Shown piece after piece: positions 30,017 through 36,466 of a stretch of DNA of 48,616 bases. The DNA is taken from positions 1 to 48,616 of the forward strand of contig JAUXEM010000006.1 of the NCBI GenBank assembly GCA_030620515.1, read 5' to 3'. The DNA is from Salinivirgaceae bacterium. Its GTDB lineage: Bacteria; Bacteroidota; Bacteroidia; Bacteroidales; SZUA-534. How positions within the stretch are numbered: the first letter of the stretch is position 1; each line of letters begins with the position of its first letter. A program made the position numbers and the translations under genes. Below the pieces are notes generated by a model. It was not told the origin of the DNA. It saw only the letters and a list, made by a program, of their open reading frames with translations, and searched no databases.

Positions 30017-30201
30017 AAAAATAAGCTAAAAGCCCGAATTTATTGGGAAAAACTAATGCAATAAACTTGAACAAATAAAAATATTATAGTGTGGCAATTG
30101 GATTCAAAAAAGCTCACTTAAGTATTGGCATACTGTATTTTAAACATTCTTTTATGAAAGGGTTTTTGAATTGGGTGTTGTATTGATAAATTATTTAATC
30201 A

Positions 30202-30232
30202 TTTGTCATGTTAAAATTAATATCTAGGTTTG
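30202..30232 (+). promoter_or_regulatory. Promoter of the ilvDBNA operon
   Basis: TTTG (30202-30205), a 19-bp spacer and TAGGTTTG (30225-30232): both Bacteroidota elements match perfectly. The predicted start near 30239 gives a ~390-nt leader before ilvD. Confidence 0.75.
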
Positions 30233-30314
30233 TTGCATCAAAAACAAAAAACAATTGTTAGGTTTTTTAACCAAACAAGTTGTTTGTGTTACCACGTAGT
30301 ATATACTTAAGTAA

Positions 30315-30383
30315 ATGAAACATAGTATTAACATTTCTATTATTAATATTCTAGTCATTATTATCGACTCAGGAGGGTTATAG
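30315..30383 (+). CDS. Leader peptide 1 of the ilv attenuator
   Basis: ATG-to-TAG frame of 22 codons, with 8 Ile, 2 Leu and 1 Val (half of the peptide), including consecutive ILVIII at residues 12-17. It ends DSGGL. It lies about 20 bases before a terminator hairpin, and its Gly-Gly codons (GGAGGG, 30372-30377) are complementary to CCCTTC in that hairpin. This is the classical design of a branched-chain attenuator: scarce charged tRNA(Ile/Leu/Val) would stall the ribosome and free the antiterminator. Confidence 0.75.
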   Translation: MKHSINISIINILVIIIDSGGL

Positions 30384-30402
30384 CTATATGAAAAATATTG
30401 TG

Positions 30403-30434
30403 AGCCCTTCTGGAAACAGAGGGGCTTTTTTTTT
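30403..30434 (+). terminator. Attenuator terminator 1
   Basis: 10-bp stem AGCCCTTCTG (30403-30412) / CAGAGGGGCT (30417-30426) with a GAAA loop and one G-T wobble, followed by T's to 30434. The upstream GGAGGG at 30372-30377 can pair with CCCTTC (30405-30410), forming a competing antiterminator. Confidence 0.85.
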
Positions 30435-30464
30435 GAATAAACTAAACATATAAAGATTCCATTT

Positions 30465-30536
30465 ATGCTAAAGCATGTCATTATTATCATTTCTATTAAT
30501 ATAGTCATTATCGATTATGAGGCAAAAGAGCTATAG
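30465..30536 (+). CDS. Leader peptide 2 of the ilv attenuator
   Basis: Second ATG-to-TAG frame of 23 codons, with 8 Ile, 2 Val and 2 Leu, including VIIII at residues 5-9 and IVII at 13-16. Its DNA is visibly related to leader 1 (shared CATTTCTATTAAT and TAGTCATTAT words), indicating tandem duplication of the module. It ends at TAG 30534-30536, with AAGAGC (30526-30531) just before the stop, complementary to GCTCTT in the next hairpin. Confidence 0.75.
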   Translation: MLKHVIIIISINIVIIDYEAKEL

Positions 30537-30552
30537 ATAAATAAAAATGTTT

Positions 30553-30590
30553 ATAAGGCTCTTCAGAAAACGAAGAGCCTTATTTATTAA
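30553..30590 (+). terminator. Attenuator terminator 2
   Basis: 12-bp perfect stem ATAAGGCTCTTC (30553-30564) / GAAGAGCCTTAT (30572-30583) with a 7-base loop, followed by an interrupted T-rich tail (TTTATT), weaker than in terminator 1. The 5' arm can pair instead with AAGAGC at 30526-30531. It ends about 40 bp before ilvD. Confidence 0.75.
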
Positions 30591-30627
30591 TAAAAAATTC
30601 ACTAATCAATAATCAACGAATTAAATA

Positions 30628-32463
30628 ATGAACTACAAAATACCATTACGAAGTAACACTACAAAACTAGGCGCAAAAATGGCTGGTGCCCGTGCCTTAT
30701 GGCGTGCCAATGGAATGAAAGAAGAACAATTTAAAGCTCCGGTTATAGCCGTTGTTAATTCGTTTACCCAATTTGTACCAGGGCATGTTCACTTGAAAGA
30801 TATAGGACAAGAGGTAAAAAAGATTATTGAAGCGGAAGGCTGTTTTGCTCCTGAATTTAATACTATAGCCATTGATGATGGAATAGCAATGGGACACGAT
30901 GGTATGTTATACTCACTGCCATCGCGCGAAATAATTGCCGATAGTGTTGAGTATATGTGCAATGCACACAAAGCCGATGCTATGATATGTATTAGCAACT
31001 GCGATAAAATTACCCCAGGCATGCTTATGGCTGCAATGAGACTTAACATACCTGCCATATTCGTATCTGGTGGCCCAATGGAGGCTGGTATTTTTAATGG
31101 CAAAAAGTACGATTTGGTTGATGCTATAGTATTAGGAGCCGACGAAAATACTTCAGCAGAGCTTTTAAAAGGCGTTGAAGAAAACGCTTGCCCTACTTGT
31201 GGTTCATGTTCTGGTATGTTTACAGCAAACTCTATGAACTGCCTAAATGAGGCACTTGGATTAGCATTACCAGGGAATGGAACAGTTGTAGCAACACATA
31301 GCGAACGTACTAAACTTTTTGAGCAAGCAGCAAATCAAATTGTAAAAAATACTTATGCTTATTATAAAAATGGTAATACTTCATTTTTACCAAGAAACAT
31401 AGCCACCAAAGCAGCATTCCAAAACTCAATGAGTTTAGATATTGCCATGGGCGGCTCAACAAATACGGTTCTTCATTTATTGGCAATAGCTCACGAAGCT
31501 GAGGTTGATTTTACCATGAAAGAAATGGATGAGCTTTCACGTATAGTACCATGTTTGTGTAAAGTGTCGCCAAATGGAAGCTATCACATTGAAGATGTAA
31601 ACCGTGCTGGTGGTATAATTGGGATATTAAGCGAATTAAATAATGCTGGATTACTTGATACATCAGTTTCAAGAGCAGATGGAAATACCTTGCAACAAGC
31701 TATAGAGAAATATGATTTATTGCTAGACTCACATACCCAACAGGCTACCGCTGTTTACTCAGCGGCACCTGCTCAAAACGGACTAAACCTAACAATGGGA
31801 TCACAAAAAGCCCGATTTAAAACATTAGACCTAAACCGCGCAAAAGGATGCATACGTAACAACGAAAATGCCTATTCAAAAGATGGTGGTTTAGCTGTAC
31901 TATTTGGAAATTTAGCCAAAAACGGATGCATTGTTAAAACAGCAGGTGTTGATGAGTCAATATGGAAATTCTCAGGCCCTGCTAAAGTTTTTGATTCGCA
32001 AGATGGCTCAGTAAAAGCAATACTAGATGGCACTGTTAAAGCTGGCGATGTAGTGGTTATTCGTTACGAAGGTCCAAAAGGAGGACCGGGAATGCAAGAA
32101 ATGCTTTACCCAACATCGTACCTAAAAACAAGGGGCTTAGGAAAAGCTTGTGCATTAATAACCGACGGACGTTTTTCGGGTGGAACATCTGGCTTATCAA
32201 TTGGTCATGCATCGCCCGAAGCAGCAGCCAAAGGAACCATTGCTCTAGTTAAAGATGGAGATACCATTGAGATAGATATACCAAATCGTAAAATGGAATT
32301 GCTTGTGAGCGAAACGGAATTAGCTGTTCGTAGAGCAAACGAAGACGCAAAAGGCAAAGAAGGATATAAGCCAAATAGAGTGCGAGTAGTTTCGAAAGCT
32401 TTAAAGCAGTATGCTCATTTTGTTAGCTCAGCAGACAAAGGAGCTGTAAGAGAAATTGAATAA
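30628..32463 (+). CDS. ilvD: Dihydroxy-acid dehydratase
   Basis: Iron-sulfur dehydratase giving the 2-keto acids of valine and isoleucine. It is 611 aa, the normal size for the long form. Visible motifs: [18 protein letters not shown]-like start (here [17 protein letters not shown]), [13 protein letters not shown] with a cluster cysteine, [17 protein letters not shown] with further cysteines, GSTNTVLHL and [16 protein letters not shown] near the C-terminus. First structural gene of ilvD-ilvB-ilvN-ilvA, reached only by reading through two leader terminators. Confidence 0.96.
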
Positions 32464-32697: not shown

Positions 32698-34443
32698 ATG
32701 GAAACGCTTACCATCGAAAAAGAAAAAACTACTGAGAAGAAAATACAAAGTATGACAGGCTCCGATGCCTTGTTACAATCGCTAATAACCGAAGGCGTTT
32801 CAACAGTTTTTGGATATCCTGGTGGAGCAATTATGCCTTTGTACGACAAGTTATTAGATTATAAAAAAGAGATATCACACATTCTTACTCGCCATGAACA
32901 AGGTGCAATACATGCCGCACAGGGTTTTGCCAGAGCTACAGGAAAACCAGGAATTTGCTTTGCAACATCAGGTCCTGGAGCAACAAATTTAGTGACAGGT
33001 ATTGCCGATGCTTACATGGATTCTACCCCATTGGTTTGTATCACTGGTCAAGTATTTTCTCATTTATTGGGAACCGATGGCTTTCAGGAAACAGATGTGG
33101 TTGGTGTAACAATGCCCATAACAAAATGGAATTTTCAGGTAACAAAAGCCGAAGAAATTCCAGAAGCTATTGCCAAAGCATTTTATATTGCTTGTTCGGG
33201 CCGTCCGGGCCCGGTAGTTATTGATATAACTAAAGATGCTATGATGAATACATTTGATTATAGCTATGAAAAATGCTCTTATATTCGCAGTTATATTCCT
33301 GAACCACGTGTAAAAACCCCACAGATTGAGGCCGCTGCAAAACTTATAAATGAAGCTAAAAAACCTTTAGCAGTTATTGGACAAGGTGTAATTCTTGGTA
33401 ATGCTGAAAAAGAGTTGCTCGCTTTTGTAAACAAGTCAGGTATTCCAATAGCGTCTACTTTACTTGGCCTGTCTTCTATTCCTAACAATCATCCACAATT
33501 TACAGGAAGAGTAGGTATGCACGGCAATATTGGTCCTAATATAAAAACGAACGAATGCGATTTGTTAATTGGTATTGGAATGCGTTTTGATGATCGTGTA
33601 ACCGGCGTTGTTAGTAAATATGCTCCGCAAGCCAAGAAAATTCATTTCGAGATTGATAAGGCTGAAATAAATAAGATTATTAAAGTTGATGCTCCCGTTT
33701 TGGGAAATGTGAAAGAAACATTAGCTCAAATTCTAGATTTCATTCAACCCGATCAATATCCTGAATGGTTAGCTGAATTTGAAGCTTGCAGTAAGGAAGA
33801 GTACAATAGAGTTGCTAAAGAGGAAGTGCATCCTAGCGATGGTAAAATTAACATGGGAGAGGTTATTGAAGTACTTAATCAGCAATCGAAAGGAGATGCA
33901 ATTATAGCTACTGATGTGGGACAACATCAAATGTTCTCTATGCTTTATTGCAAATTTAAAGACACAAGAGCCTGGATAACATCAGGTGGTTTAGGTACCA
34001 TGGGCTTTGGTTTACCTGCCGCAATGGGAGCTCAGTTTGGTTGTCCTGATAAGAAAGTTATCTCTATTTCGGGCGATGGTGGCTTTCAAATGACCATGCA
34101 GGAATTAGGAACCATTGCCTACAATAAACTGCCTTTGAAAATGATTGTATTAAACAATAACTTTCTAGGAATGGTTCGTCAATGGCAAGAATTGTTTTTC
34201 GATGAACGCTACTCAAACACACCAATTAGTAGTCCTGATTTTGTGGCTTTAGCTGCTTCGTACAAAATTAAAGGTGAAACAGTAAATGATCGTTCAACTT
34301 TGAAAGATGCTATGGAGCGAATGTGGCGCTCTGAAGGAGCATATATTCTTGAAATTAAGGTAGCTGCCAAAGGTAATGTTTTCCCAATGGTACCTGCAGG
34401 AGCATCGGTTAGTGATGTAATTTATGGCGATGAGCATAAATAA
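32698..34443 (+). CDS. ilvB: Acetolactate synthase large subunit
   Basis: Thiamine-diphosphate enzyme condensing pyruvate with pyruvate or 2-ketobutyrate. It is 581 aa. The N-terminal domain has VFGYPGGAIMPLYD and the catalytic glutamate in RHEQGAIHAAQG; the central FAD/regulatory domain follows; the C-terminal ThDP motif is SGDGGFQMTMQELGT...NNNFLGMVRQWQ. It starts 234 bp after ilvD and is followed by its small subunit after 31 bp. The 234-bp gap has no gene. Confidence 0.95.
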   Translation: METLTIEKEKTTEKKIQSMTGSDALLQSLITEGVSTVFGYPGGAIMPLYDKLLDYKKEISHILTRHEQGAIHAAQGFARATGKPGICFATSGPGATNLVTGIADAYMDSTPLVCITGQVFSHLLGTDGFQETDVVGVTMPITKWNFQVTKAEEIPEAIAKAFYIACSGRPGPVVIDITKDAMMNTFDYSYEKCSYIRSYIPEPRVKTPQIEAAAKLINEAKKPLAVIGQGVILGNAEKELLAFVNKSGIPIASTLLGLSSIPNNHPQFTGRVGMHGNIGPNIKTNECDLLIGIGMRFDDRVTGVVSKYAPQAKKIHFEIDKAEINKIIKVDAPVLGNVKETLAQILDFIQPDQYPEWLAEFEACSKEEYNRVAKEEVHPSDGKINMGEVIEVLNQQSKGDAIIATDVGQHQMFSMLYCKFKDTRAWITSGGLGTMGFGLPAAMGAQFGCPDKKVISISGDGGFQMTMQELGTIAYNKLPLKMIVLNNNFLGMVRQWQELFFDERYSNTPISSPDFVALAASYKIKGETVNDRSTLKDAMERMWRSEGAYILEIKVAAKGNVFPMVPAGASVSDVIYGDEHK

Positions 34444-34474: not shown

Positions 34475-35023
34475 ATGAATCAAGAATTCACATTAACAAT
34501 ATTTTCGGAAAATAGCATTGGATTACTTAATCGAATCACAATTATATTCACAAGAAGAAAACTAAACATTGAGAGTCTGACGGTTTCAGAATCAGCAATT
34601 AAAGGTGTTTTTAAGTTTACTATTGTGGTTAACTGTGAAGAACACAACGTTAAAAACTTGGTTAAGCAAATTGAAAAACAGATTGATGTTATTCGTGCCT
34701 TTTACCTTTCGTCGGATGAAATATTACATCAAGAAATTGCCATGTATAAAATTAAAACATCATCGCTACTTGAATCTAATTTAGTTGAAGGTATTATTCG
34801 CCGTTACAATGCTCGTATTCTAGAGCTTACTAAAGAGTATACTGTAATAGAAAAAACAGGTCATAAGGCCGAGACTCAAGAATTATTTGAGCAACTAAAG
34901 CCATATGGTGTATTACAGTTTGTTCGTTCAGGCCGAGTGGCTATTACACGTTTAAAGAAAGAACATTTAAGTAGTTATTTGGAGAATTTAGAAAAAGAAC
35001 ATCGCCAACCTGTAGAAGCGTAA
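34475..35023 (+). CDS. ilvN: Acetolactate synthase small (regulatory) subunit
   Basis: ACT-domain subunit that confers valine feedback control on acetolactate synthase. It is 182 aa. The ACT fold is seen in TLTIFSENSIGLLNRITIIFTRRKLNIESLTVS (residues 4-36), with the usual second half and a C-terminal domain ending in a charged tail (GVLQFVRSGRVAITRLKK). It lies directly after ilvB, as expected for the holoenzyme pair. Confidence 0.93.
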   Translation: MNQEFTLTIFSENSIGLLNRITIIFTRRKLNIESLTVSESAIKGVFKFTIVVNCEEHNVKNLVKQIEKQIDVIRAFYLSSDEILHQEIAMYKIKTSSLLESNLVEGIIRRYNARILELTKEYTVIEKTGHKAETQELFEQLKPYGVLQFVRSGRVAITRLKKEHLSSYLENLEKEHRQPVEA

Positions 35024-35194: not shown

Positions 35195-36466
35195 ATGCCA
35201 GAAATATTAAAAGAGACTGTTTGGTATCCAAGTCTCGAAGAAATAAATAAAGCTCACACAAGTCTTGCAACTATAATAGAACCTACTCCGCTTGTAAAAA
35301 GTATATCATTATCGGAACAGTATGGTGCTAATATTTTTTTAAAACGCGAAGATTTGCAACTAGTTCGTTCCTATAAAATAAGAGGGGCTTATAATAAAAT
35401 TTCTTCCTTATCGGGAGAGGTCCTGAAAAAAGGAATTGTATGTGCCAGTGCCGGAAATCATGCACAAGGAGTAGCCTTTTCTGCGGCGCACATAAAAACC
35501 AAGGCTATTATTTTCATGCCTGAAACTACGCCAAAACAAAAGGTAAGGCAGGTGCGTATGTTTGGTAAAGAATATGTTGAGGTTATTTTAATTGGCGATA
35601 CCTTTGACCATGCTTACGATGCTGCTTTAGAAAAATCGAAGAATGAAGGCATGGCTTTTATTCACCCTTTTGATGATGAGAAAATAATTGAAGGACAAGC
35701 CACTGTTGGTTACGAAATTTTACAACAAGCAAAATGCCAATTCGACTGTTTAATTATGCCCATAGGTGGGGGTGGCTTGGCAGCTGGGGTTGGAAGCTAT
35801 TTTAAAACTATTAGTCCAAATACAAAGCTTCTTGGCGTTGAGCCAGAAGGGGCTCCTGCCATGAAAGAATCGATAGCAAAAGGACAATTGGTTAAGCTCG
35901 GCAAAATGGAAACTTTTGTAGATGGTGCGGCTGTAAAGCAAGTTGGAAAACTAACTTTCAATATCTGCAAAGAATTTATTGATGAAATAAGATTGGTTCC
36001 AGAAGGATTAATTTGTACTACCATATTAAAACGCTACAACGAAGATGCTATGGTGGTTGAACCAGCAGGTGCAATGAGTATTGCAGCCCTTGAGCTAATG
36101 AAGGATGAAATAAAAGGCAAAAATATTTGCTGTATTGTAAGCGGTAGCAATAACGACATTACACGTACCGAGGAGATTAAAGAGCGTTCGTTAATTTACG
36201 AAGGGTTAAAACATTATTTTATAGTACGTTTTCCGCAGCGTGCTGGTGCATTAGGCGAGTTTGTAAATAATATATTACAACCTGGTGACGACATTACTCT
36301 TTTTGAATACTCTAAAAAACACAATCGCGAAAAAGGACCGGCTTTAATTGGTATTGAGTTGAGTAATAAAAATAATTTTAACCAGCTAATTCGGAATCTA
36401 GAAGAAAGAGGTTTTGAATATGAATATATTAATAATAAACCAAATTTGTTTCAGTATTTAGTGTAA
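35195..36466 (+). CDS. ilvA: Threonine deaminase (threonine ammonia-lyase, biosynthetic)
   Basis: PLP enzyme producing 2-ketobutyrate for isoleucine synthesis. It is 423 aa. The PLP lysine is in VRSYKIRGAYNK (K61), the phosphate loop is MPIGGGGLAAGVGSY, and SAGNHAQGVAF is present. The C-terminal ~80 residues (YFIVRFPQRAGALGEFVNNILQPGDDITLFEY) form a single ACT-like regulatory half, as in other ~420-aa IlvA proteins, shorter than the E. coli form. Last gene of the ilv cluster, after a 171-bp gap with its own promoter-like box. Confidence 0.94.
   Translation: MPEILKETVWYPSLEEINKAHTSLATIIEPTPLVKSISLSEQYGANIFLKREDLQLVRSYKIRGAYNKISSLSGEVLKKGIVCASAGNHAQGVAFSAAHIKTKAIIFMPETTPKQKVRQVRMFGKEYVEVILIGDTFDHAYDAALEKSKNEGMAFIHPFDDEKIIEGQATVGYEILQQAKCQFDCLIMPIGGGGLAAGVGSYFKTISPNTKLLGVEPEGAPAMKESIAKGQLVKLGKMETFVDGAAVKQVGKLTFNICKEFIDEIRLVPEGLICTTILKRYNEDAMVVEPAGAMSIAALELMKDEIKGKNICCIVSGSNNDITRTEEIKERSLIYEGLKHYFIVRFPQRAGALGEFVNNILQPGDDITLFEYSKKHNREKGPALIGIELSNKNNFNQLIRNLEERGFEYEYINNKPNLFQYLV

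Follow-up and report, generated by a model that had tools for sequence, protein, structure and literature searches.

The closest described systems to the leader reported here are attenuators read by a translating ribosome. In Escherichia coli, thrL, ilvL (ilvXGMEDA) and leuL each have a leader ORF with many residues of the regulated amino acids, a segment 2 at the end of the leader, and alternative 2:3 and 3:4 stems, and our locus shares these traits. It differs from the E. coli leaders in that two modules stand in series before one operon, and also in phylum, promoter type and sequence. Predicted attenuators of branched-chain amino acid operons, some of them in Bacteroidetes/Chlorobi, were reportedly described by Vitreschak et al. 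in 2004.

Doubled attenuators have been described in other settings. The mgtCBR operon of Salmonella carries mgtM and mgtP in tandem in one 5' leader. There, mgtM answers ATP and mgtP proline, their effects are additive, and the stem-loops are said not to resemble intrinsic terminators (PMC3641672). Our locus is like mgtCBR in combining a pair of leader ORFs with a pair of attenuators within a single 5' leader, and unlike it in that its gates have predicted intrinsic terminators and are built on the same amino acid set. Intrinsic terminators that answer the same signal would be expected to form a multiplicative lock, in contrast to the additive control of mgtCBR. In streptococcal mefA/msrD, msrD lies behind two erythromycin-sensing attenuators, an arrangement termed a double-lock against basal expression. 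In that operon mefAL acts on mefA and msrD, and msrDL on msrD only, with a macrolide as the signal (PMC10314930). The shared feature is a pair of ribosome-mediated attenuators that take the same signal in series. A gene separates the gates of mefA/msrD, whereas ours lie next to each other within a single leader and would respond to charged tRNA. Also mentioned in the literature are a second terminator in tandem in the rimP leader of several Gammaproteobacteria (PMC2965389) and long 5' UTRs in Bacteroides with short ORFs that recall attenuation leaders (PMC7366714).

Among the matches listed by full-text searches of a literature that most subscription papers fall outside, none dealt with ilv leader-peptide attenuation in Bacteroidales or with two attenuators for the same amino acid in one leader. 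An earlier note on this DNA knew of no description of the layout in Bacteroidota. That view holds within the literature searched, where no case was found; other phyla do have known tandem attenuators of the leader-peptide kind. Here, we analyze the region upstream of ilvDBNA in a Salinivirgaceae bacterium (assembly GCA_030620515.1). The window, meaning the whole stretch of DNA analyzed, covers 48,616 nucleotides (contig JAUXEM010000006.1, positions 1 to 48,616, forward strand). Our analysis makes it very likely that the ilvDBNA leader holds two ribosome-mediated transcription attenuators, each complete, arranged in series downstream of a single promoter.

Organization of the ilvDBNA leader

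On the + strand, a predicted promoter, leader ORF 1, terminator 1, leader ORF 2 and terminator 2 follow one another 5' of ilvD (30628). The features are:

30202..30232, +, predicted promoter of the Bacteroidota sigma-ABfr type: TTTG (30202), 19-nt spacer, TAGGTTTG (30225-30232), a perfect match to TTTG / TAnnTTTG
30243..30290, +, predicted 5' UTR hairpin between promoter and leader 1 (30239-30314 folded; -14.4 kcal/mol over that whole stretch)
30315..30383, +, leader peptide 1 ORF, MKHSINISIINILVIIIDSGGL and stop; 11 of 22 residues Ile/Leu/Val (8 I, 2 L, 1 V)
30369..30379, +, putative segment 2 of module 1 (5' strand of the antiterminator) where leader 1 ends, pairing with 30403-30413 (-17.7 kcal/mol on an upstream ribosome stall)
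30402..30427, +, stem of terminator 1 (segments 3 and 4), a predicted intrinsic terminator with a T run to 30434
30465..30536, +, leader peptide 2 ORF, MLKHVIIIISINIVIIDYEAKEL and stop; 12 of 23 residues Ile/Leu/Val (8 I, 2 L, 2 V)
30526..30539, +, putative segment 2 of module 2 (5' strand of the antiterminator) where leader 2 ends, pairing 30526-30532 with 30557-30563 and 30533-30539 with 30548-30554 (-10.9 kcal/mol)
30553..30583, +, stem of predicted terminator 2 (segments 3 and 4), with a weaker tail, TTATTTATTAATAAAA (5 T in 8)
30628..32463, +, ilvD, dihydroxy-acid dehydratase (NF009103.0, 1028.7 bits)
32698..34443, +, ilvB, acetolactate synthase large subunit (TIGR00118.1, 712.2 bits)
34475..35023, +, ilvN, acetolactate synthase small subunit (TIGR00119.1, 105.5 bits)
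35195..36466, +, ilvA, threonine ammonia-lyase (NF006390.0, 617.4 bits)

All four ilv genes were called by NCBIfam models that score above their cut-offs. The coordinates and residue counts that the earlier note had given for the leaders and terminators, and for the segments GGAGGG (30372) and AAGAGC (30526) at the stop regions of leaders 1 and 2, were confirmed on the sequence. Its consensus promoter before module 1 is of the Bacteroidota type, whose consensus is given in PMC7366714. This form, with a spacer of 18-21 nt, occurs three times on the + strand of the whole window and not at all on the - strand. A generic sigma-70 scan of the window was uninformative (6 sites against 6.3 expected). 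One promoter is predicted to lie ahead of both modules. The U tract of terminator 2 is poor, so gate 2 may terminate weakly.

We searched both strands of the window with a strict detector that demands an Ile/Leu/Val (ILV)-rich leader, a terminator and an antiterminator. It returned two modules, these two, and nothing else. Terminators 1 and 2 are two of the four terminator-like hairpins found in the window at the thresholds used. The strict detector passed 1 of 875 shuffled ilvD upstream regions, the control having been run for this rule only, and found no module at any of 27 loci from outside Bacteroidota that carry the same type of IlvD. No Rfam family reached its threshold in the window; Phe_leader (RF01859) scored 26.7 on module 1 and 22.1 on module 2, and Thr_leader (RF00506) scored 18.7 on module 2, each against a threshold of 55. 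A looser form of the detector suggested a third module upstream, made of an ORF at 30171-30227 and a hairpin near 30255. We rejected this candidate: the ORF begins 5' of the promoter and overlaps it, and the hairpin has only 3 G-C pairs and lacks a proper T run.

Other features of the locus and genome were recorded alongside. A 21-codon ORF (30388-30453) has its ATG 4 nt past the stop of leader 1 and runs across terminator 1, where reinitiation would disrupt the hairpin. Upstream, ilvC and an AraC-type gene, the latter with best models below their cut-offs, lie on the opposite strand, and the detector found no attenuator before ilvC on the - strand of the window. No attenuator was seen within 500 nt of leuA of the same genome. 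The region upstream of hisG (L256, G000:C13:5020-5562) has one leader ORF rich in His, MYLNLHHLHHHFIHAKKAQD, and after it the terminator AAGGCTCACAGAAATGTGAGCCTT with its T run; this is likely a single his attenuator.

Folding of the leader with a ribosome in place

The earlier note had proposed that the segment at each leader stop codon can pair with the 5' arm of the following terminator, and had suggested folding the leader as a check. We moved a ribosome along the leader, setting one codon after another at the A site, and left the RNA free from 13 nt past the first A-site base. The transcript was folded only to the end of the terminator 5' arm, when the 3' arm is not yet made. In module 1, the antiterminator had a mean probability (P) of 0.89 (-17.7 kcal/mol) for stalls at every scanned codon to 30357; P was 0.60 and 0.32 at the final two Ile codons and 0.00 at the stop. 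In module 2, mean P was about 0.73 (-10.9 kcal/mol) for stalls to 30510 and 0.07 at the stop. The zone in which a stall yields the antiterminator covers 9/11 ILV codons in leader 1 and 10/11 of those scanned in leader 2. The same code applied to E. coli controls gave the same profile, with 4/4 for the Ile codons of thrL, 13/15 for ilvL and 9/10 for leuL. The proposed pairing thus held in both modules: the antiterminator forms in silico on most ILV stalls and almost not at all at the stop.

Full-length equilibrium folding, applied to the window modules, favored the terminator wherever the ribosome stood (P never below 0.87). Equilibrium folding is thus uninformative as a test of the switch, which must be kinetic and decided during transcription, as in the classical model.

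Each segment 2 in the window prefers its own segment 3 (-17.3 and -11.2 kcal/mol, compared with -9.9 and -6.3 kcal/mol for cross-pairing). We do not claim selection for orthogonal antiterminators, since this comparison has no null and, among nine loci, L006, L187 and L194 break the order somewhere. Pairing between leader and segment 2 (1:2) exceeded that of permuted-codon versions in 118 related modules preselected by a loose antiterminator filter, at a mean z of -0.84 (s.e. 0.13). By eye, 1:2 pairing is weak in module 1 of the window. An alignment of leaders from the window's family shows, also by eye, a conserved AUAGUC (window 30501-30509, for example) able to pair with GGCUAU at the leader stop as a candidate 1:2 hairpin.

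Attenuator modules in related Bacteroidota

We gathered 185 Bacteroidota ilvD loci, leaving out partial hits and distant IlvD paralogs and sorting named records by title; 179 were non-redundant, and 175 of these had at least 300 nt upstream. At least one module was present in 89 of the 175 loci by the strict rule and in 111 by the loose rule. The other 64, which include Prevotella and Alistipes, had none even by the loose detector. Some of the module-less loci are detector misses, because at least one of them (L012) shows a leader and a near-terminator by eye. The genome of the window is coded f1/g1, and its order is Bacteroidales: G040, from the same order, shares its ilvD upstream region with Heminiphilus faecis of the Muribaculaceae, a Bacteroidales family. 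In family f1, to which the window belongs, a leader and terminator precede ilvD in 16/16 loci (14 strict, L003 loose, L012 by eye). Two of these 16 are tandem, the window and the genome coded G003. The nearest relatives, G005 and G001 (IlvD 86% and 85% identical), have one module only, so a second gate is not essential.

The predicted switch extends to these relatives. Among 100 modules picked without an antiterminator filter, 73% had P of at least 0.5 on ILV codons and at most 0.3 at the stop, compared with 13% of 300 shuffles. Two doubtful far-upstream modules (L074, L180) were kept in this sample. Both it and the 118-module sample omit duplicates or near-copies (L009, L010, L011, L015, L016, L165, L177, L178, L181), loci with less than 200 nt upstream, and five modules set aside as spurious on manual inspection. 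As for promoters, 77 of 92 single-module loci have a perfect TAnnTTTG within 160 nt 5' of the leader, and 72 of 81 such -7 boxes sit 10-40 nt before it (13 boxes in shuffles).

Alignment of related ilvD upstream regions, also suggested in the earlier note, bore out the stems. We aligned 12 of the 18 family modules (10 distinct rows), with near-copies and L012 left out and the block register set by hand. Paired cells made up 95% of stem 2:3 and 98.8% of stem 3:4, and base changes on both sides occurred at 2 pairs in 2:3 and 3 pairs in 3:4. For 3:4, the share of paired cells was reached in 0/500 shuffles and the count of both-side changes in 12/500. The corresponding values for 2:3 were 18/500 and 139/500, which makes it the weaker case for compensatory change. 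Together, these patterns point to ribosome-mediated attenuation as a frequent form of ilv control in Bacteroidales.

Two side observations concern how leader and gene are distributed. In L007-L016 (family f1, genera g5 and g6), IlvD groups with Prevotella and a Bacteroidaceae MAG, and the attenuator DNA is like that of the window's family; perhaps ilvD was swapped in under a native leader. L224 and L229, from other orders of the class and with a distant type of ilvD, have an ILV-rich leader and terminator upstream by the loose detector, and attenuation of ilvD may reach beyond Bacteroidales.

Tandem loci and the origin of the pair

Tandem modules were found in 11 of the 175 loci: L001 (the window), L006, L066, L082, L084, L139, L151, L187, L194, L199 and L240. 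They are spread over the coded families f1, f110, f99, f21, f19 and f30 and the Marinifilaceae. On a quick FastTree of 96 IlvD rows that includes 10 of the 11 tandem loci (L199 is absent), the tandem label needs 8 changes, counted as gains or losses, of which 7 are forced by well-supported branches. Across the 22 tandem modules, mean P ranged from 0.47 to 0.98 with the ribosome on ILV codons and from 0 to 0.34 with it at the stop. By the cut-offs used above, 20 of the 22 switch (rounded values); the near misses are module 2 of L194 (0.34 at the stop) and module 2 of L240 (0.47 on ILV codons).

A perfect -7 box precedes module 1, with none between the modules, in 10 of the 11 tandem loci. Series gating is predicted from this arrangement. 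The box of L240 lacks a -33 match, and four loci (the window, L066, L082 and L084) have their box about 75-110 nt from leader 1, farther than usual. The exception is G003 (L006), which has a promoter before each module, the second being TTTG-18-TATATTTG. Tandem modules are therefore not always in series.

The earlier note described the two window modules as similar and seemingly duplicated. The similarity stands: their aligned identity is 0.79, and of 208 comparisons made against modules from elsewhere, 1 scored as high. A small module tree with moderate support splits them, placing module 2 with the single modules of the nearest relatives and module 1 elsewhere. Duplication within the window is plausible but not clear. 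The pair in L194 clearly looks like a recent duplication, with modules 0.90 identical and leaders that share their last 16 residues. In L139 and L151, 70 and 73 of the 208 other-locus comparisons score as high as the locus's own pair, so these modules are no more alike than strangers.

Alternative readings

We weighed four other accounts of the window. In the first, a single module works and its partner is left over from a duplication or from an older leader. Most module-bearing loci do have one module (of the 111 scored by the loose rule, 11 are tandem), and the U tract of terminator 2 is weak. Gain or loss is seen within one genus of f110, where G128 has one module and G221 and G293 have two. 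The Marinifilaceae bear on this account in both directions. Between Labilibaculum and a third Marinifilaceae genome, module 2 with its spacer and terminator differs at 13/145 positions, no slower than the upstream stretch (15/168). Yet both modules are kept across Marinifilum, Labilibaculum and the third genome, and module 1 with spacer and terminator is nearly unchanged between the latter two (1/142). Between Marinifilum and Labilibaculum, a 1-nt indel shifts the frame of leader 1 past the ILV run; the end of this peptide is not conserved, which is tolerable for a leader. In the window itself, both modules retain a full leader frame, a terminator and a ribosome-dependent antiterminator. We consider a single working module unlikely, with a small chance of being right.

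In the second account, the gates sense different amino acids or isoacceptor tRNAs and form a two-signal AND gate. The earlier note had raised sensing of different tRNAs as one option, and mgtCBR is a two-signal precedent. Leader 2 also has one ATA codon and one Val more than leader 1. Against this, both leaders are dominated by Ile and similar in make-up: each window leader has 8 Ile codons, all but one of them ATT or ATC, and the L194 leaders are identical over their final 16 residues. The suggestion was not borne out, and we regard two signals as improbable. Gates for different signals fit less well than a double lock, which would leak less and have a higher gain.

The third account posits two promoter-attenuator units, with a second promoter before leader 2 that lets transcripts bypass gate 1. 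G003 shows that such an arrangement occurs. Between the window modules, no -7 box with at least 5/6 matches was found, and the nine tandem loci besides L006 and the window have no 6/6 box between their modules. The gap from terminator 1 to leader 2 is merely 11-38 nt in 7 of the 11 tandem loci. A bypass promoter in the window is very improbable.

Finally, ILV-rich ORFs and hairpins could arise by chance in this AT-rich region, where Ile codons are frequent and ILV residues make up half or more of 7 of the window's 250 small ATG ORFs, but the shuffle and non-Bacteroidota controls and the paired stem changes speak against it, and this reading, already contradicted by the conservation found, is close to impossible.

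Two ribosome-mediated attenuators in series, as the earlier note had proposed, are thus the best reading of the leader, given the switch in silico, the paired changes in relatives and a sole consensus promoter 5' of module 1.

Discussion

The mechanism is best read as classical attenuation. In each module, RNA polymerase would transcribe an Ile-rich leader ORF. When charged tRNA-Ile (or Val/Leu) is scarce, the ribosome would stall in the ILV run and leave segment 2 free to pair with the terminator 5' arm, and polymerase would read through. When charged tRNA is plentiful, the ribosome would reach the stop codon and cover segment 2, the terminator would form, and transcription would end. Both gates would have to be passed before ilvD, so that readthrough probabilities multiply. 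Doubling would square the leak and increase the logarithmic gain roughly twofold while lowering the starvation maximum little. Sequence and computation supply the two ORFs, the two terminators, the alternative pairings with their dependence on where the ribosome stands, the modules of relatives and the one consensus promoter; from these we infer leader translation, termination in vivo, the response to amino acids, the start site and the benefit of doubling.

We illustrated the effect of doubling with a ribosome-polymerase race model, which uses an assumed leak of 5-10% and chosen parameters and serves as illustration only; the framework follows Elf and Ehrenberg 2005 (PMC1183508). One gate gave a 6-8 fold range and two in series gave 37-72 fold, with the logarithmic gain doubled and readthrough near 1 in starvation.

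Ribosome-mediated ilv attenuation in Bacteroidales is merely hinted at in the literature searched. The new part is the series arrangement, which appears to recur in Bacteroidales. Related one-gate and two-gate versions form a natural series for attenuation theory, on which the tuning of gain and leak, and whether gates multiply, could be examined. Tandem leaders are also potential ready-made parts for tight amino-acid-responsive expression.

Tandem leaders differ from single ones in composition. The Ile share of ILV residues is 0.58 in tandem leaders (16 leaders) and 0.31 in single leaders (90 leaders), and the GC content of the region is 0.314 and 0.373, respectively, in a comparison that counts L066 and L199 as single. 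Below a GC of 0.34, the Ile difference persists (p = 0.014 by GC-matched permutation of 33 loci, 8 of them tandem; kinship uncorrected, L199 as single). We tentatively propose, as an idea somewhat more apt to fail than to hold, that doubling of same-signal attenuators is a recurrent route in Bacteroidales to higher gain and lower leak of ilv, favored in AT-rich genomes with Ile-reading leaders. If this is true, heavy use of a codon would lower the sensitivity of a lone attenuator, and adding another gate in series would compensate.
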